Below are positions 27,496-59,818 of a DNA stretch of 64,000 nucleotides, piece after piece. The notes beneath the pieces were generated by a model. That model was given only the letters and a program-made list of their open reading frames with translations, ran no database searches and had not been told where the DNA came from. The DNA comes from Hyperoplus lanceolatus (taxonomy: Eukaryota > Chordata > Actinopteri > Uranoscopiformes > Ammodytidae): positions 6,871,001-6,935,000 of the forward strand of contig CM049408.1 in the NCBI GenBank assembly GCA_026929865.2, given 5' to 3'. The position numbers and the translations under genes were made by a program. Position 1 is the first letter of the stretch. The number at the start of each line of letters is the position of its first letter.

Positions 27496-28399
27496 TAACG
27501 TATTTTCCGCACTATAAGGCGCACTGGACTTTAAGCCACAGGTGTTATAATGTTTAATTACCATGTGTAAGAGTTCGTGCACAGAGGGGATTGTCGGGAA
27601 AGAGATGGCTGCTTGAGGAAGCTCCCATTTATTAACATTTCAACAAACAAGTTGCATATTTGCATAACGTACGTAAGTGTTACCATTTAGAGCAATAGTA
27701 GCTGCTAGGGATGAGTGTTTTCGCTACTCGTGTGATCGCTTGCTGTGTCCTCATTAAAGTTTTTTCTATTTTTAGAACGCAACGCATCTGTCTACAGAAC
27801 AACGGTTGACCGCAATAAAGCGCTCTTATGTCAAACAGTCACAGTTGCCATATGATATTAAAGATTGTTTTCCACAAGTTTAAAACACATTTTCCTCACT
27901 GAAAGTAATTAAATAGACGGGCCACAATTTAACCTTCCTCTTGTGTTAGGGTCGCCACCGACCCGTTTTGGTTTTCAAATGCATAAAAGAACCACTTACA
28001 TTTTGTTTATTGCTTCAAAATTTCTTGACTTTGTCAGGAACCTCTATTTCAACAAAATAAAAAAAATAAAAAATGTTTCACTTAATTATAAAATGGTCTG
28101 GTGGAAATGATAACACTGGTGGTGTTAGGGTCGTTTTCGACCCGGTTACAGAATAAAATGTAAAAAACAATAACTAGAGCCAAAACTGAAATCATAAGTG
28201 CACTGTCAGCCAACACAATGACAGTTAGCTCCTCTCCCAATAATGTGAGCTCTGGGGGGGGTTCTCATTTTGACCTTTGTTCCCCTTATACCTGCATAAA
28301 AGCGAAACAAACAGAAGGGCATATCCAGACATGTGAAGTCAATTCAGTACAGAGTTAGTGACTTGCAGAGTGCACATCTCCTATTTGCAGTATTTAAAA

Positions 28400-28560
28400 A
28401 TGAGGAGATATACAGTGAGCCAAGTTCTGGATCATGTTTTTGGTGAAAATGGCCACCTGATTCTATAAATAAGAGGTGTCAGGTCTGCCGAAGCACTAAG
28501 GACAGAAAGATAAACGGATTGTGCTTTACCTGCAAGAAATATCTCTGCAAAGAACACTAA
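28400..28560 (+). pseudogene. piggyBac transposase remnant: start plus C-terminal Cys-rich domain
   Basis: At 28400 an ATG opens MRRYTVSQVLDHVFGE, resembling the beginning of a fish piggyBac transposase, and reaches a stop (TAA at 28466-28468) after about 22 codons. Immediately after it, in another frame, 28471-28560 encodes the family's C-terminal cysteine-rich domain: KRCQVC then CFTCKKYLCKEH and a stop, a CxxC...CxxCxxxxCxxH pattern that binds zinc and contacts the transposon ends in active relatives. The roughly 500 residues between, including the catalytic Asp residues, are absent. The deletion joins the first and last pieces of the gene within a few bases. Confidence 0.75.
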
Positions 28561-29049
28561 AAGTGTTGCTTTTTGTCACACATCTGTACACACACACATA
28601 CACATGCACACTTTTACTCTGTTTCTTTTTAATAGTTTTGGAGCTAGTAATTGATTTCGATTGGTTTGATTTGTTGATTGGTTGTTGTTTATTTGACCTT
28701 ACAAATCTATATTTTGTGTTGTGACTTGTTCTGGTTTTCATTGTGTGTTTGTATAATGCTGAAATAAAAGTTTGTTGCTCTTTTCTGAAATAGATATTTA
28801 TGGCTCGTAATTGACCAGTAACACCATAGATGTTAAAAAGGTCAATAATATTAATATGAAAAGATAAATAACCCTCAGTAATAATCAGGTAACACAACAA
28901 CCAAATATTTATATATATGATTTTCTTAAGGTTAATTTGACCATTTTTTAAACTGAAATTGAGGCGCATACTGACAAAAAAAGGTCCAGCCGCCTTCACC
29001 AAAAATATTTAAAAAAATATTTTCATGGATAAGGAAGCCTAACAATGAA

Positions 29050-29296
29050 TTTGGTGGAGCGGGTCGGCCGATGATTAAAGGGTTGGAGGTTCGATCCCCG
29101 CCCTGTCACCTATGTCATAGTTGTTGTGTCCGTGGGCAAGACACTTCACCCACCTTGCCTCATGTGAATGTCGATAGTTAGCCTGCTATCGGTGTATGAA
29201 TGTGCGTGGGAATGGTAACGTGGGAAAGGAAAACAGGTCTCCCTTGCAAAAGAGTCTTCGGTCTCAATGAGATTTACCTGTATAAATAAAGGTTAG
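29050..29296 (+). mobile_element. tRNA-derived SINE, 5'-truncated, inside the piggyBac copy
   Basis: Matches the full SINE at 43113-43397 in reverse orientation. It begins within the tRNA-like head (GGTGGAGCGGGTCGGCCGAT), keeps the B box in GGAGGTTCGATCCCCGCC, then the body with GGGCAAGACACTTCACCCAC, and ends TATAAATAAAGGTT. The first part of the head, with most of the A box, is missing. Confidence 0.8.
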
Positions 29297-29730
29297 AGAA
29301 CAATGTAACCAAGAGATGAGAAACAAAAAGGATGATAGATAATTGTTTTTATTGTTTTTACAGCTGATTTCGAAACCGACCCGCTAACACCATGGATGGT
29401 AGCAGAAAGTTAACACAGGAGGAAGGTTAAACCGATCGAGTAGGTCTGATATGGGGAGAGAAAAAGAGAAAAAAAGCATGGGCTGTAGTTGTAACACATT
29501 TTTTTTTGCCTAAGTCACCATTTAAAATAAGAAGGGCAGCAGATAATATACCATGATTGTCCTACAATTTAAATAACTCACCAAAGCAGATAGTTGTAGG
29601 CCTATATCCAACCGCGTAATGCTCACTTTGTGTCCGTGAATAATTACCGCGACTAATTCCTCATTAACGGAACGTTACACCGGTCGGTTTTTGAATCTTA
29701 TCCCCATATTCCCTATTAAAGGCTTCTTAA

Positions 29731-30334
29731 AGAGGACCTATTATGCTACTTTTCTGGTCTTAATTTCTTGTTTTACACTGCTATAGAGCAACCTGACACG
29801 AATCACATCACAAAAAACTATGTAGATTTTCGGGAAGCTCTTTCTCTTATTTTGGCGATCCAGCACATCCTGTCAACACTTGAGTGTGTGTGCTTCGGCT
29901 CCCTCCGCCTGTGCTTCGGCCATCTCCGCTCCCCTCCCCCCCCCTCCTGCAAACCCCACTCCGTTGTGATTGGTTACCTTCCTTCCGGAACACTTTCAGT
30001 GGCGGGAAGCGCGAGCATGGACCTATAAGGACGCGAGGCAGACGCGAACAGGGAAGTGACAGCATTACCATACATGGAAACATCCGCGTGGAGACGTCAC
30101 AAAGTTTTATGCGACGTCACAAATTATGAAAGGGTAGACCGCTTTGAAGACGTGACTTCTCGACTGGCTAGAATAGTGTTTAGTGCTCTGCACAGACACC
30201 CCAGACGGTCAGCAGGGAATATGTCGAAATGCATGTAAGTCATTATTTGATAATTTAGTATGGTTAAGCATGACTATGAATCATCATAACAACGTTTATA
30301 GGTCATAAAAGTCAAAAAGCATCATAGGTCCTCT
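29731..30334. mobile_element. TTAA-flanked MITE, Kolobok-like, inside the hAT element
   Basis: Flanked by TTAA (29727-29730 and 30335-30338). Left end AGAGGACCTATTATGCTACT; complement of the right end AGAGGACCTATGATGCTTTT. 604 bp, no transposase. The ends differ from piggyBac (no CCY start) and resemble the common fish elements I associate with Kolobok. The superfamily call is less certain than the element itself. Confidence 0.7.
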
Positions 30335-30948
30335 TTAACTGTTGTTGGCTTGGAGCGAATGTGCCTGAAGTAATCCTTGCTTCTTCTTTTCTTTCCAAGC
30401 GGAGCGCACCTTGCATGCTCACCTGGAGTCTACTCATTACTAACTGAGAGTAACAAGTGTCATCTCCCCTTTTTATAAACGTACCTTTATCATCTGCTTT
30501 GAAATAATTGGACAGTTATATTCCTGAAAATGTTCTGGAGAAGAAAGGAGAGACCGTGTTCAGCTCCGTGGTGCCGTGGAGCACACAGGCTGCGCTGCGG
30601 TGGCACGGAGGTGGCAGTTATTTGCAGTTGCTGTTTGACACAACGCTCAGTTTATTGCACTTGCATCAAAATATTTGATTTTGTTAAACTTTATTTTCTC
30701 CGTTTTGTGCCGTTTTGTACACGTATATAACATTTTAGAATAAGGGCGGCCGCGGCCCGCCGGCCTGAAGGCTACAGACACTAAAAAGAAAACGATTTTC
30801 CTCATCCACCAATCGAGTTAATTCGAAACGAGGAGTACTCGATTACTAACGCCCATCCCTAATAGCTACAGAACATATACTGCGCTGTGTAATAACAGGG
30901 TCGAAAAATGGGGAAAAAGTCGCGCCTTATAGTCCGAAAATTACGGTA

Positions 30949-38799: not shown

Positions 38800-39345
38800 A
38801 TTTTCATTTTCCTTTATTTATTCTCGAAAGATCAATTGAGGTTACCCTCTTTTACAATGACGTCGAGACAGATACACAATATACAATGAGAATACACAAC
38901 AAGCTTACAAAGAGACAACAATTAAAACATTCAGATCAATTGAATAAAATAGAACAATAGCCTAATTAAAACAGTTACAAGTGGAGTGGGGCTGATTCAA
39001 AATAATAACTTTAAATTGGTTAACAGTTATGAGTGTATTTATTTTAATTTGATGTTGTAGGCTGTTCCAGGAGTCAGGGGCACTGTGGCTAAAAGCAGTC
39101 TTACCAAGGTCAGACCGGGCGTATGGAACATTTAACATGAGCATGTCAGTTGAGCGGGTTTGATAAAGCCCATCAGAGATATGCAGCATTGTTGTCAAAT
39201 AGAGTGGCAGCTTTCCGGTCAGGGCTTTATATATAAAAATATGCCAATGTGCATCACGTCTCTCTTTAAGAGAGGACCAACCAACCTTTTCATATAAAAG
39301 ACAATGGTGAGTGTCATAAGCATCTGTCATAAGCATAAGCATCAA
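38800..39345 (-). mobile_element. 5'-truncated LINE, copy 1
   Basis: The minus-strand frame ending at 38962 encodes the C-terminal end of a LINE reverse-transcriptase protein (YDTHHCLLYEKVGWSSLKER and onward to STCNCFN), nearly the same as copy 2 at 43.4-44.6 kb. It is followed by a 3' UTR with the shared phrase CTCGACGTCATTGTAAAAGA or variant, and an A/T-rich end (GAATAAATAAAGGAAAATG). The 5' end breaks near 39325-39345 amid a short GCATAAGC repeat. No catalytic motif remains. Confidence 0.82.
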
Positions 39346-42300
39346 ATAATTTTTTCAAGTGCAATGTCAAATCTAAAAATGCCTAATGAAAGTTACTGCT
39401 CGGGAACTCTGAAACTATTACAGAAACATTTAAAAAACAGTGTTGTAAGGAATGAGTTGGGTGGATTATGAATCCTTTTATGGATACGGCCTCCTGTTTG
39501 TGTCTGGCAGGATCGCCTCATCAACATCACATGCAATGTAATCCTTTGAGGAGCAGCAGCGAAAATATTGCCTGGTGCTTGTGACCGGTGACTGGGCATG
39601 GTCACCGAAGTTAGAGGTTGTGATGCTTTGGGCATGGCAACCACTTTGAGTGTTTAAACATTAAGCAAACACTGTATACTATTCTTTTTTATTTCTAGGC
39701 TGCCATGCATTTCATGCCAAAATAACGTCCGTGAAAATTAAATGCATTCCATTGTTTACTTTAAACCAAGGGACACAGATATCATTCAATTGATGTTGGC
39801 AAACAGGACAAACAAGAGAGGAGTGGTTTACATCCCTGCAAACACTAGACTAGTGTATGAATCCAATCATAAGTTGTGGTTATGTGAGTCCAGCCTTGCA
39901 CTTGATTGGTATTGCACAGCAATGTTTTAGAGCAGACTCGTTCCCCCTTGCAACATTGTTGTCCTTGATGGCATGATGCGAGGTATTGTGTGGAAAATTG
40001 CTTGCAGTGCGACTGAGTGTGTGTATGTGTGTATTGTCATGACGCATGCTTCTACAAAAGGTTTGAAAATGGGATTCAGGGTTGTTGACAACGTACGGCG
40101 CGGTTTATTCAGTGATATGTACTGCGTGTGAGAGAGAAACTTATTTGACGGATATCTGGATTCCTGCTGCTGAAAAAATGTCTTGCATGAAATTTTCATC
40201 ATCCAAGTGACGGACTTCAACAGGATTCCCGTGAAGCGAATCTGCAGCTCACACCTTTACTGGCAAACACACAGTCAGATCCACAAAGCTTTGTCTCCTT
40301 CTTTTGACACATTGTTATGACTTCACATACTTTGGATGTGTCACGTTGCATAATGCTTCGGTTCAGACCTCCCAAATCATAGTTATTCATGAGAGTGGTA
40401 ACACCATAAATCCCATTGCTATACTGCGTCTCACTTATATTATTCTCAATGAGTTTCCTTTTGATAGACTTCCCCAAAGCTTATCAATCACTTAGTTTTC
40501 AATCGCTTTGGTGCCCCCTCTAGTACGGAGCCCCGATGCGCCGCATATAGTGCATACTTTGCGACACTGCCTATTGAAGATTAATTCTGGGAGTTTTCCC
40601 CTATCCGATCTAAGGTTCTAGGGATGAATGCTGTGCAGAGGGTTTAGTGCCTTGATAAATACAATTAACTTAACTTTGATAGTCAGTGACCAGGTATGGC
40701 TGTGGAGCGAGTGTGGTAGAATGTCCATGTAGTACCGATAGTACATTACATTATAGCAGTAGGGTAATAACAAGAGACAAATGGAAAAATACATTCTCAA
40801 AATTGGCAAGGGAGGAAGAGTAGCATTCATTTTACTCTCTAGCATGGTTTAAGGTACATATACACTGGATCATTCATTTCCCATAATGCAACTCAATAGA
40901 TTCTTACGTTTGGCCATTGGTAAATGCCTCCCTCCCTGAAACATCACACTAATGGTTGAAAGGCAGACTTTCTGTTAAAATGTTTAGTCTCCAAGCTCAA
41001 GCCAATCAACCCAGTTGACATAATCACAGTCCGTCAGCAGGGTTATTCTCTCAGTCAAACCTCCTCCAGAGACAGTATTCAACTGTTTTCACAGGCTGGT
41101 AGTAGTAGTTGAGTTATACCCTTTAAGTCATCAGTCATATGTTGTGTACTGGATTGACACCTGCAAAAAGAGACTTTTCACAACTCAGCCTCCAAAAATG
41201 TGCCCAAAGTGAGGATTTTCAATTGATCTACATAGTAAATGATATCGATTAAGCATCCAGTCCAATGACAAATCAACATAAATTATAACTTATAAAGGCT
41301 GCTTCATTAGAAAGTGATACTTTGTAATATTCAATACACTATAGAACCCTGGGTTTGGTGCCCTTTCGGCTTTGAAGACCTACTTTGTGATCTTGACTGA
41401 TATGACGTGAATGTTTTTACATAAAGTCTGGTTTTATTTGGACAGTGGGAATAGACAGACAGTGAGGGAGGAGAGTAGAGGTCAAGGTCTTAAGAAGCCT
41501 GCAGCAAAGCCAGTACAGACATTTAAAGCTGTATAGCCAACACCCATCTCTTTCAATTCCAAATTACCTAAATAATTATAAATATTTTAACCTAAACACC
41601 CGTTCATGAAGACAATTCAACATGCTGTCTGCATATTGGCCTATTCATAAATTAATTTCATGAGTATGAGCCTAAATGTTACCCTACTGTATAAACAAAG
41701 ATATTGTGTTTTCCACCATATTCAGTTTCTCTTCATTGCTCAAAAGGCAAATACACAAAGGAAAAAGTAACAAGGAGATCTCAGGTTAACTTTATACCCC
41801 TGACACAGTTTTAGACAAAGGCCTTTTATGCTGTGATTAATGCATTGTTCTCTCTCTATACAAGATGTCTGCTGTATGCAATGATTTGTTTGCACGTTCG
41901 TGAGGCTGGCCTTGGTATGCTGTCTCCCGCTTGCCATAGACAAAGTCTGATGATGTATTGTTTGGTTCCTCTTATCGATTAAGCATCCAGTCTTAATCAA
42001 ATGAGACATATGAGTGATACCAACAAGCAAATTGGCTTGTTGATTAAACAGCAACAAACAGATCATAGAGAAAGATTTTCAAGCGACTCCGTGAAGCCTT
42101 TTGACTAATGATTAATTCTGTGTTCTCCACGAGAATAGCAAACGAATGTTCTTTGTCTGATTGAAATACGCTTTTACTTTAGTTTAAAATGCACTCAAAT
42201 GCTGTTTTGCTAGCAGTAAAGAAAAACGTTTTATTAAACTGCTGGAAAGGAAAGACCGCTAATGGAAACAAATTTGTACTGTTGACTCACTCTGCATACA

Positions 42301-43112: not shown

Positions 43113-43148
<36 letters not shown>

Positions 43149-43397
43149 TTTATTTATACAGGTATATCCCATTGAGTCCGAAGACTCTTTTTCAAGGGAG
43201 ACCTGTTCCCATTCCCACGTTACCATTCACACACCGATAGCAGGCTAACTATCGACATTCACACGAGGCAAGGTGGGTGAAGTGTCTTGCCCAAGGACAC
43301 AACAACTATGACACAGGTGGCAGGGCGGGGATCGAACCTCCAACCCTTTTTGATCATCGGCCAACCCGCTCTACCAACTGAGCCACAGTCGCCCCTT
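43113..43397 (-). mobile_element. tRNA-derived SINE, full head, minus orientation
   Basis: Read on the minus strand it begins AAGGGGCGACTGTGGCTCAG, with an A box (TGGCTCAGTTGG) and a B box (GGTTCGATCCC) in a tRNA-like head. The body contains GGGCAAGACACTTCACCCAC and AGTTAGCCTGCTATCGGTGT, then AAATAAAGGTT and a poly-A tail of about 32 (the T run 43113-43144). Same family as the truncated copy at 29050. Clear target duplications were not found. Confidence 0.85.
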
Positions 43398-43431: not shown

Positions 43432-44567
43432 TATTTTCATTTTCATTTCATTTAACTTTTATTTATCCTCGAGAGACCAGTTGAGGGGTGACCCTCATTT
43501 TCAATGACGTCGAGTCAAAACAAATTCAAAAACAACAATACATACAAAACAAACAAAACAATTGAAATATTTACAAAGTGGTGAAGAGTGGCAGCAATTA
43601 AAAGGAATAAAGTACAATATTGCCTAATTAAAACAGTTACAAGTAGAGTTTGGCAGATCCAAGATAGTCTGTTTAAATTGGCCAAAGGATATGAATGTAT
43701 TTAGTTTAATTTGTTGCTGTAAGTTATTCCAGGAGTCAGGGGCACTGAAGCTAAAAGCTTTCTTTCCCAGCTCAGACCGGGCTTGTGGGACATAAAGCAT
43801 AAGCATGTCAGTGGAGCGGGTTTGATAAAGCCCATCTGAAATGTGCAGCATTTCAGTTAAATAACGAGGAAGCTTCCCGGTCAAGGCTTTGTAAATAAAA
43901 ATGTGCCAATGTGCGTCACGTCTCTCTTTAAGGGAGGACCACCCAACCTTTTCATATAAGAGACAATGGTGTGTATCATAAGCATCTCCTGTGATGAATC
44001 TTAAAGCAGAGTGAAAAACAGAGTCTAGGAGTTTAAGACATGAATGTGATGCATGCCGGTAGACCACATCACCGTAATCAAGGACAGACATGAAAACTGC
44101 CTCAATAATCCTTTTCCTACTAAATAAAGGGAAGGTGGTTTTATTCCTATAAAAATAGCCAATTTTTTGTCGTAGTCGACAAACAAGATTGTTTATATGA
44201 AAATGAAAAGTGAGTTTATCATCTAACCAGATGCCGAGATATTTATACTCTGTGACTCTTTCAATTAAAAATCCATTCTTTGTAAACATATTAAAATCAT
44301 TAAAATGTGTAGTTTTTGCTCTGGAGAAACACATATATTTGGTTTTGTCTGTATTAAGAACAAGCCTGAGGTCCACTAGACAGTCCTGCAGGGTGTTAAA
44401 AGAGCTTTGTAGGTTCTCAATAGATTGGTGCACCGAATCGGAAATGCAATACAGTACTGTGTCGTCAGCGTATAGATGGGCGTGACAGTTTTTTAGCGAT
44501 GAAACAATGTTATTTATATAAATTGTGAAAAGAACTGGACCTAGAATTGAGCCCTGTGGGACTATTT
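43432..44567 (-). mobile_element. 5'-truncated LINE, copy 2, with reverse-transcriptase fragment
   Basis: Minus-strand non-LTR retrotransposon fragment. It starts inside the reverse transcriptase at the conserved PQGSILGPVLF motif (near 44560), continues through the catalytic YADD box (HLYADDTVLY, near 44470) and the thumb region, and keeps the whole C-terminus to a stop at 43624. The 3' UTR holds CTCGACGTCATTGAAAATGA and ends in AAATAAAAG and repeated AAATG units, as in LINEs with short tandem tails. The motifs place it in the jockey/L2/Rex-type group; the exact clade is not determined. It lacks the endonuclease and the first part of the RT, so it cannot move itself. Confidence 0.87.
43624..44567 (-). 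pseudogene. LINE reverse transcriptase, C-terminal part
   Basis: About 314 codons are open in one frame, although the first methionine lies only at 44433. Order: RT motif with PQGSILGP, YADD active site (two of the metal-binding Asp residues), the NTDKTKYMCFSR segment, YKYLGIWLDDKLTF, and the region LLYEKVGWSSLKERRDAHW to the C-terminus. Copies DNA from its own RNA in intact relatives. No internal stop is seen, so the truncated insertion looks fairly recent. Upstream sequence is not LINE, so truncation happened at integration or soon after. Confidence 0.8.
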
Positions 44568-48823: not shown

Positions 48824-50407
48824 CACTCAACACAAATATAAACCCAACACTTTTGTTTTTGCTCCCATTTTTCATGAGATGGACTTAAAGATCTAAAATT
48901 CATTCCAGATACACAATATTACCCTTTCTCTCAACCATTGTTCACAAATCTGTCTAAATGTGTGATAGTGAGCACTTCTGCTTTGCTGAGATAATCCATC
49001 CCACCTCACAGGTGTGCCACATCAAGATGCTGATCTGACATCATGATTAGTGCACAGGTGTGCCTTAGACTGTCCACAATAAAAGGCCACCCTGAAATGT
49101 GCAGTTTTGTCTCACAGCAAAATGCCACAGATGCCACAAGCATTGAGGGAGCGTGCAATTGGCATGCTGACAGCAGGAATGTCAACCAGATCTGTTGCTC
49201 GTGCATTGAATGTTCATTTCTCCACCATAAGCCGTCTCCAAAGGCGTTTCAGAGAATATGGCAGTACATCCAACCGGCCTCACAACCGCAGACCACGTGT
49301 AACCACACCAGCCCAGGACCTCCACATCCAGCAGGATCACCTCCAAGATCGTCTGAGACCAGCCACTGAGACAGCTGCTGAAACAATTGGTTTGCATAAC
49401 CAAACAATTTCTGCACAAACTGTCAGAAACCGTCTCAGGGAAGCTCAACTGCATGCTCGTCGTCCTCATCGGGGTCTTGACCTGACTCCAGCTCGTCGCC
49501 GTAACAGACTTGAGTGGGCAAATGCTCACATTCGATGGCGTCTGGCACGTTGGAGAGGTGTTCTCTTCACGGATGAATCTCGGTTTACATTGTTCAGGGC
49601 AGATGGCAGACAGCGTGTGTGGCGTCGTGTGGGTGAGCGCTTTGCTGATGTCAATGTTGTGGATTGAGTGGCCCATGGTGGTGGTGGGGTTATGGTATGG
49701 GCAGGCATCTGTTATGGATGAAGAACACAGGTGCATTTTATTGATGGCATTTCGAATGCACAGAGATACCGTGATGAGATCCTGAGGCCCATTGTTGTGC
49801 CATACATCCATGAACATCACCTCACGTTTCAGCAAGATAATGCACGGCCCCATGTTGCAAGGATCTGTACACAATTCTTGGAAGCTGAAAATGTCCCAGT
49901 TCTTGTATGGCCAGCATACTCACCGGACATGTCACCCATTGAGCATGTTTGGGATGTGCTTGACCGGCGTATACGACAGCGTGCACCACTTCCCACTAAT
50001 ATCCAGCAACTTCGCACAGCCATTGAAGAGGAGTGGACCAACATTCCACAGGCCACAATTGACAATCTGGTGGTCACACAATATACTGACTGGTTCTGAG
50101 TCCCCAGACCCCCAATAAAGCAAAAAAATGCACATTTCAGAGTGGCCTTTTATTGTGGACAGTCTAAGGCACACCTGTGCACTAATCATGATGTCAGATC
50201 AGCATCTTGATGTGGCACACCTGTGAGGTGGGATGGATTATCTCAGCAAAGCAGAAGTGCTCACTATCACACATTTAGACAGATTTGTGAACAATGTTTG
50301 AGAGAAATGGTAATATTGTGTATCTGGAATGAATTTTAGATCTTCAAGTCCATCTCATGAAAAATGGGAGCAAAAACAAAAGTGTTGCGTTTATATTTTG
50401 TTGAGTG
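48824..50407 (+). mobile_element. Tc1-like transposon, nearly complete, with 286-bp inverted repeats
   Basis: Flanked by TA (48822-48823 and 50408-50409). Ends begin CACTCAACACAAATATAAAC (left) and, complemented, CACTCAACAAAATATAAACG (right). The inverted repeats run 48824-49109 and 50122-50407 and look almost identical by eye. A single transposase frame fills the space between. It inserted in an intron of the hAT transposase pseudogene. The long matching repeats and only two stops in the gene point to a fairly recent insertion. Confidence 0.93.
49122..50099 (+). pseudogene. Tc1-like DD34E transposase with two in-frame stops
   Basis: The frame runs from ATG 49122 to TGA 50097-50099, 325 codons. 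The start is chosen because MPQMPQALRERAIGML begins the helix-turn-helix region; AATG context is ordinary. N-terminal half: paired-like DNA-binding helices (SVARALNVHFSTISRLQRRF) and an arginine-rich linker. Catalytic core: LFTDESRF (first Asp), QQDNARPH (second Asp) and SPIEHVW (Glu), with 34 residues between the second Asp and the Glu. Two TGA codons interrupt it at 49665-49667 (after DVNVV, next to VAHGGGGVMVWAG) and 49719-49721 (before RTQVHFIDG). The first is likely a CGA-to-TGA transition. Otherwise no frameshift was seen. In intact relatives it cuts and pastes the element at TA sites. Confidence 0.88.
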
Positions 50408-59391: not shown

Positions 59392-59789
59392 TCATGTCTG
59401 TTTCTTGATCTGTTTAAAATCAACTTTTTGTGCAGCAGCAACCACAGCCTCCCAGACACTGTTCCGAGAGGTGTACTGATTTCCTTCACTGTAAATATCC
59501 CGTTTAAGCAGGGCCCACAGGTTCTCAATATGGTGTAAGTCAGGTGAGGAAGGGGGTGATGTCATTATTTTTTCATCCTTAAGGCCTTTACTGGCTAGCC
59601 ATGCAATTGAGTACTTCAACGCATGTGATGGAGCATTGTCCTGCATAAAAATCATGGTCTTCTTGAAAGAAGCAGACTTTTTCCTGTACCACAGCTTGAA
59701 GAAAGTATCTTCTAGAAACTGGCAGTAGGTTTGGGAGTTGATTTTGAGGCCATCTTCAACCCGAAAAGGTCCAACTAGCTCATCTTTAA
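59392..59789 (-). pseudogene. Tc1-like DD37E transposase fragment
   Basis: Minus-strand frame of about 130 codons from the palindrome at 59789 to a stop at 59392. It starts KDELVGPFRVEDGLKINSQT, has FMQDNAPSHA (second catalytic Asp) and SPDLHHIENLW (Glu), with 37 residues between them, and ends shortly after WEAVVAAAQKVDFKQIKKQ. The usual SPDLNPIENLW has become SPDLHHIENLW. The N-terminal DNA-binding domain, the first Asp and the terminal repeats are missing. The C-terminal end is cut short by a stop. Inactive remnant of a Tc1/mariner element of a different group from the two above. Confidence 0.78.
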
Positions 59790-59818
59790 AAAGGCAATTA
59801 AAGATGAGCTAGTTGGAC
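59769..59818. repeat. Perfect 21-bp inverted repeat at the break of the transposase
   Basis: Arms 59769-59789 and 59798-59818 are exact complements (left arm begins GTCCAACTAGCTCATCTTTA), with an 8-nt loop. The left arm encodes the transposase segment KDELVGP; the right arm is the same sequence inverted, and no further transposase follows. Confidence 0.9.

Follow-up and report, generated by a model that had tools for sequence, protein, structure and literature searches.

The nest of transposable elements at positions 27,496 to 30,948 of the window (the whole stretch of Hyperoplus lanceolatus DNA that was analysed, 64,000 nucleotides) has as its two outermost layers a TA-flanked MITE and a hAT-like segment that are one composite, amplified as a unit in this genome. 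The history favoured here, with a probability of about 0.85, is that the composite inserted at the window locus as one unit and later received a piggyBac-type derivative, a SINE within that derivative and, most recently, a TTAA-flanked MITE, and that the composite family has a history of hAT excision.

Structure of the nest

Five recognisable transposons make up the nest, in four nested levels with each end readable. The boundaries of all five were checked base by base, and the ends given by the sequence-only reading, which had described a four-level nest with every boundary readable, are all present letter by letter in the window sequence. The outer element (27498–30946) lies between the two copies of its TA target duplication (27496..27497 and 30947..30948), read from the sequence and matched by TA flanks in relatives, and its 27-nt arms, TA included, are 85% complementary. 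The left part of this MITE (27498..27705, plus strand) ends with the left hAT duplication (27698–27705, GTAGCTGC), and the right part, up to the terminal repeat (30862..30946, plus strand), starts with the right hAT duplication (30862–30869, ATAGCTAC). Six of the eight positions in these two flanks are equal, as had been noted from the sequence. Between them is the hAT-like non-autonomous segment (27706..30861, plus strand), with the ends TAGGGATG...CATCCCTA and a length of about 1.05 kb without its inserts.

Two elements interrupt the hAT-like segment. The non-autonomous piggyBac-type derivative (27929..29430, plus strand) has TTAA at 27929–27932 and 29427–29430, and contains a 5'-truncated tRNA-type SINE (29048..29298, plus strand) between exact AACAATG target duplications (29041..29047 and 29299..29305). 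The separate TTAA-flanked MITE (29727..30338, plus strand) has Kolobok-like ends, TTAA followed by AGAGGACCTATTATGC. The TTAA claimed at both elements is exact. The 807 Mb genome, in 527 contigs, was searched for repeat copies, and each layer of the nest recurs elsewhere with the same ends, indicating that the layers are more than chance; other copies ending at the proposed termini, on which the sequence-only reading had staked its case, were therefore found for every layer. There is no tRNA gene or Rfam match within the nest.

Three TTAA-ended inverted repeats (at least 17/20, less than 5 kb) are found in the whole window, two of which are the piggyBac derivative and the TTAA MITE. The third is an element at 677–1788 with arms of about 50 nt containing TTTTAAATACAGAAATGTCGGCC. 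Elsewhere in the window, an open frame at 43624–44565 (minus strand) matches reverse transcriptase (RVT_1, E = 3.7e-16), and another, shorter one at 38962–39354 (minus strand) has, by eye, a C-terminal part in common with it. Pieces of Tc1-type transposase are present in separate frames, one matching HTH_Tnp_Tc3_2 (49083–49667, plus strand) and two matching DDE_3 (49722–50099, plus strand, and 59392–59808, minus strand).

The outer MITE and the hAT segment as one composite

The outer MITE shows a TA duplication and terminal inverted repeats. When its short form, with all inserts removed, was used as the query, all 40 scored places (of 834 first-look candidates) matched across the hAT join at 89–94% identity. 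Of the 20 of these that were fetched, 19 have TA on the left, 18 on the right and 17 on both sides. The MITE therefore also exists without the hAT segment, both in these 40 places and in seven exact empty sites described below.

The hAT segment alone as the query likewise matched throughout, all 40 scored places (of 550 candidates) having 85–90% identity and crossing both of the inner joins. MITE sequence is present at the junctions of 36 of these (28 at both, 8 at one). The other four had no flank in that count; the right flank was read in two of them and both carry MITE sequence, giving 38 of 40 with the remaining two places unread. The ends were read at six of the 40 places, on five contigs, and all six have GTAGCTACAGAACA, which is MITE sequence, directly after the hAT. 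Genome-wide there are 213 exact hAT 3' ends, and 183 continue directly into the MITE sequence NTAGCTACAG; the other 30 lack the exact MITE flank at places that were unread, which mutation could explain.

A composite query, from which the piggyBac and TTAA inserts had been removed, spans both hAT junctions at 29 of 40 scored places (of 719 candidates) and one junction at the other 11. The composite is an element of 1.3–1.4 kb on 17 contigs, with 20 near-complete matches of 1314–1388 bp at 87–91% identity among the 40 scored. The junctions of passenger and host are thus identical at many unlinked loci. The flanks shared by the hAT copies make it most likely that the nest of hAT in MITE was made once and copied, and the MITE flank at 38 of 40 hAT copies and 183 of 213 ends means that its junctions were not made at the window locus. 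The proposal that the hAT inserted into the MITE at this locus does not survive these counts.

The sequence-only reading had named permanent linkage of the segments elsewhere as the observation that would count against it. Such linkage was found for the outer pair only. A single composite of all five parts is ruled out: in 38 of the 40 composite matches the sites of the piggyBac derivative and the TTAA MITE are crossed unbroken, and none of the 23 other aligned piggyBac copies contains the SINE. The empty sites that were sought for these two TTAA insertions are accordingly seen in the same 38 composite matches.

In the six hAT copies read, the duplication is GTAGCTAC; the right 8 nt agree in all six, and the left agrees in all six over 6–8 nt. 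It is exact in the sole copy read fully on both sides (L111/L112). As the six relatives carry GTAGCTAC as far as read, the 6 of 8 match in the window represents two private changes. The six relatives also have a left hAT inverted repeat 6–7 bp longer than that of the window copy.

The hAT site in short copies of the MITE

Three versions of the hAT site occur in the MITE family: one empty, one filled and one apparently vacated by the hAT. A genome-wide pattern search with a free gap at the site, which demands exact flanks and so samples part of the family, gave 53 matches, with gaps of 6 (10 copies), 9 (3), 10 (4), 11 (25), 13 (9) and 15 (2). An empty site gives a gap of 6, and a perfect double duplication would give one of 14. 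Seven of the ten copies with a gap of 6 are exact empty sites with exactly one GTAGCTAC, where filled copies carry two; the empty-site search proposed for the hAT level therefore succeeded. The 43 matches with larger gaps all have sites longer than the empty site; set against the double duplication, these are shorter by 1, 3, 4 or 5 or longer by 1. None of the 53 has a gap of 7, 8, 12 or 14. None of the ten copies with a gap of 6 is among the 40 best matches to the MITE of the window.

The 20 fetched short copies give a similar picture; copies were chosen by likeness to the window, with 40 of several hundred candidates scored per search. None of the 20 has a simple pre-insertion site (one misfitted the first site expression and was read with a looser one), and in most of them the site resembles two GTAGCTAC duplications minus a few bases. 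Compared with two perfect duplications, five sites require a single deletion, two require one substitution in addition, and 13 require two steps or do not fit. The commonest site sequence, in 9 of the 20, is two steps from the double duplication and is probably the gap 11 class (25 of 53). Insertions and deletions outside the hAT site are each found in one of the 20 copies only, and the site itself varies in most. The tree of the 20 copies is star-like and so gives no count of separate excisions.

With 43 of 53 and 20 of 20 short copies lacking the empty site, many of them scar-like, much of the amplification of the short MITE probably took place after the arrival of the hAT. The proposed sequence of outer MITE first and hAT second is therefore too simple. 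The probable history suggested by these site sequences is a single insertion of the hAT, its amplification as a passenger and then its excision. The hAT would have entered an ancestral MITE at the target GTAGCTAC, and a transposase acting on the outer ends would have amplified MITE and hAT together. Excision by a hAT transposase would later have turned composites into short MITEs in which the 8-bp duplication persists as two imperfect copies, and these scarred short MITEs would have been amplified again. Site sequences such as GTAGCTAGTAGCTAC and GTAGCTACTAGCTAC would be the excision scars.

The linkage and the length classes reported above would follow from excision by a transposase of the hAT out of copies multiplied by that of the outer ends. 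A stronger version of this, somewhat better supported than an even chance, is a cycle of two transposases in which the trapped hAT is copied by the MITE machinery and repeatedly excised by its own. Most short MITEs may then descend, scarred, from composites and not be left over from the family as it was before the insertion, and the footprint at the site may be a heritable barcode of each excision.

The piggyBac-type derivative and its SINE

The piggyBac derivative is found at 39 other scored places, and TTAA is present at both ends in 22 of the 27 fetched. For divergence, 23 other copies were aligned; L080, L084, L087 and L088 were omitted because they are interrupted or incomplete. Near 28402–28561 the derivative contains a putative degraded remnant of a cysteine-rich transposase. 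The best PDB match of the remnant is the piggyBac cysteine-rich domain 5lme (E = 0.032); against Pfam it has only matches below the cut-off, none of them to piggyBac, and against NCBIfam it has none. One of the omitted copies, L084 (G000:C1:893900-897100), is a piggyBac derivative containing a TTAA MITE of the same family as that in the nest, with 98.9% identity, and is an independent second nest.

In all 23 other aligned piggyBac copies, the SINE site is unduplicated and without the SINE, with a letter or two varying. The SINE therefore inserted into the piggyBac copy of the window. This unoccupied site is the empty site sought for this level and, together with the ends and the exact 7-bp AACAATG duplication, it bears out the placement of the SINE within the piggyBac copy within the hAT. 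The other host copies examined thus lack each of the later inserts.

The SINE family has 39 other scored places (of 886 candidates) at 93–96% identity. The first 18 nt or so, GGGGCGACTGTGGCTCAG, are missing from the window SINE and present in several longer relatives, so that the window copy is truncated at its 5' end; for the same reason the A box is seen only in the longer relatives. The window copy has the motif GGTTCGATCCC, which we take to be the Pol III B box, and the tail ACCTGTATAAATAAAGGTT, presumably the LINE-like 3' tail of the SINE. The A and B boxes, LINE-like tail and target duplication place the family in the tRNA-derived class. A second SINE copy of this family is present in the window at 43144–43377 (minus strand), with 88% identity, and adjoins a 32-nt T run.

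The TTAA-flanked MITE

The TTAA MITE is found at 39 other scored places (of 565 candidates), all at 100% identity to the nearest percent. Of the 40 scored matches, 39 have the opposite orientation to the window copy, which is probably an artefact of selection among tied candidates. All 30 loci examined, among them that of the window, have TTAA at both ends with otherwise different flanks, and in all 30 the TTAA is followed by AG at the ends. This agrees with the Kolobok target and its terminus of two purines. The terminal AGGRR motif of T2-MITEs was not found, the ends reading AGAGG. A composite copy at G000:C4:37441949-37443942 is interrupted by about 608 bp at query positions 135–138, which are a TTAA; the insert is unread, and its size fits the TTAA MITE of the nest.

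Divergence and the order of insertion

Nesting alone cannot order the SINE and the TTAA MITE, as neither contains the other. Differences from the family majority were found at 1 of 612 positions in the TTAA MITE (29 other copies), 9 of 245 in the SINE (3.7%, 29 other copies), 31 of 1244 in the piggyBac copy (2.5%, 23 other copies) and 11 of 285 in the outer MITE part (3.9%, 20 other copies). The outer divergence was measured against short MITEs and that of the SINE against its closest copies, so that differences between subfamilies may contribute to either figure. The window SINE is farther from the majority than any of the 29 others (0.8–2.45%).

By far the closest to its own family among the parts of the nest is the TTAA MITE, which differs from the SINE (Fisher p = 9e-5), the piggyBac copy (p = 7e-5) and the outer part (p = 2.5e-5). 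The SINE, which had been placed last, is therefore probably not the last insertion. The differences between SINE and piggyBac (p = 0.28) and between outer part and piggyBac (p = 0.23) are not significant. With those two pairs indistinguishable and values of 3.9%, 2.5% and 3.7% from the outer part through the piggyBac copy to the SINE, the steady outward rise in divergence that was offered as support for the original order is not seen. The TTAA MITE is later than the composite by its position and last by its divergence, giving the order composite, piggyBac derivative, SINE, TTAA MITE. At the window locus, the composite would have inserted as one unit and then been hit by the piggyBac-type derivative; the SINE would have inserted within that derivative, and the Kolobok-like TTAA MITE would be the most recent arrival.

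Alternative histories

Assembly of the nest step by step at the window locus, from a short MITE entered by the hAT, then by the piggyBac derivative and the TTAA MITE, with the SINE last, is in keeping with the nesting, the duplications and the occurrence of short MITEs without the hAT, all of which are real. It can barely be reconciled with the MITE flank at 38 of the 40 best hAT copies (two unread) and 183 of 213 exact ends, or with a divergence of the TTAA MITE below that of the SINE. Gene conversion rather than recent insertion might account for the near identity of the TTAA MITE copies, the 39 other matches being at 100% to the nearest percent; however, these copies are on many contigs, have unrelated flanks and are each at a TTAA, and the 98.9% copy inside another piggyBac element indicates that not all copies have been homogenised, making this explanation highly improbable. 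It is also very unlikely that the element of 1.3–1.4 kb is the original TA element, the short MITE its internal deletion and the inner segment not a hAT. Many MITEs are internal deletion derivatives, and the hAT part has no open frame of at least 110 aa, yet the inner segment has the matching ends TAGGGATGGGC and GCCCATCCCTA, has an exact 8-bp duplication in L111/L112, and corresponds in position to empty sites that carry a single duplication.

The length variation of the site in short MITEs could instead have arisen by slippage in a small repeat (GTAGCTA...TAGCTAC) older than the hAT, which then entered an unduplicated copy. The motif is short and self-similar, and in 13 of the 20 copies the site cannot be derived from two duplications by a single deletion, with or without one substitution. 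Against slippage are the seven exact empty sites with one GTAGCTAC, compared with two in filled copies, and the lengths of the variants, which are 1, 3, 4 or 5 short of the double duplication or 1 beyond it, gaps of 7, 8, 12 and 14 being absent. The indels outside the site are each private to one of the 20 copies while the site varies in most, and small indels are what hAT excision leaves (PMC3499496). Slippage is therefore a conceivable but doubtful explanation, and excision of the hAT from composites is preferred.

Relation to known systems

Composite MITEs are already known. The mammalian MER6/MER6A elements (PMC6887750) are one case, in which a V-SINE was captured by a TA-flanked mariner-type MITE and the two then spread together. 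The element described here is similarly a TA-flanked MITE amplified as one unit with a foreign element inside; unlike the V-SINE of MER6, its passenger is a cut-and-paste DNA transposon, and empty, filled and apparently vacated copies of one site are present in one genome. Such a passenger with all three states in one family seems less usual. Among the titles listed in searches of the open-licence literature, to which this statement is confined, none other than that on MER6 deals with such a composite, and the three papers listed there for the end sequences of the outer and TTAA MITEs all have unrelated titles.

Donor sites left by excision of the TcBuster hAT carry small insertions and deletions, and its insertions have 8-bp duplications (PMC3499496). 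Both features are shared by the sites described here. The TcBuster events were in cultured cells, whereas here excision is deduced from fossil copies that sit within a different mobile element, and no transposase was seen. For the TTAA MITE, PMC6004289 gives Kolobok of Xenopus a TTAA target with two purines at the terminus, and T2-MITEs the AGGRR motif. The TTAA target and the AG terminus are shared, and one end given for subfamily A5 matches, by eye, at 12 of 16 terminal bases; unlike the T2-MITEs, this element ends in AGAGG.

The use of nesting to order transposon activity is established in REANNOTATE (PMC2672092) and TRANScendence (PMC5657132), and the same principle was applied to this locus. 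As first described, the nest is ordinary for a repeat-rich genome. Compared with those approaches, the locus exposes a pitfall, in that a nest copied by transposition is no independent record of order. The junction between the two outer elements was most likely made once elsewhere and then copied, and a readable nest of this kind can mislead the dating of transposons. Within one genome, the MITE family documents how a cut-and-paste element got into another mobile element, was carried along by it and probably left it again; the scars at one fixed site could serve to count and order its excisions.
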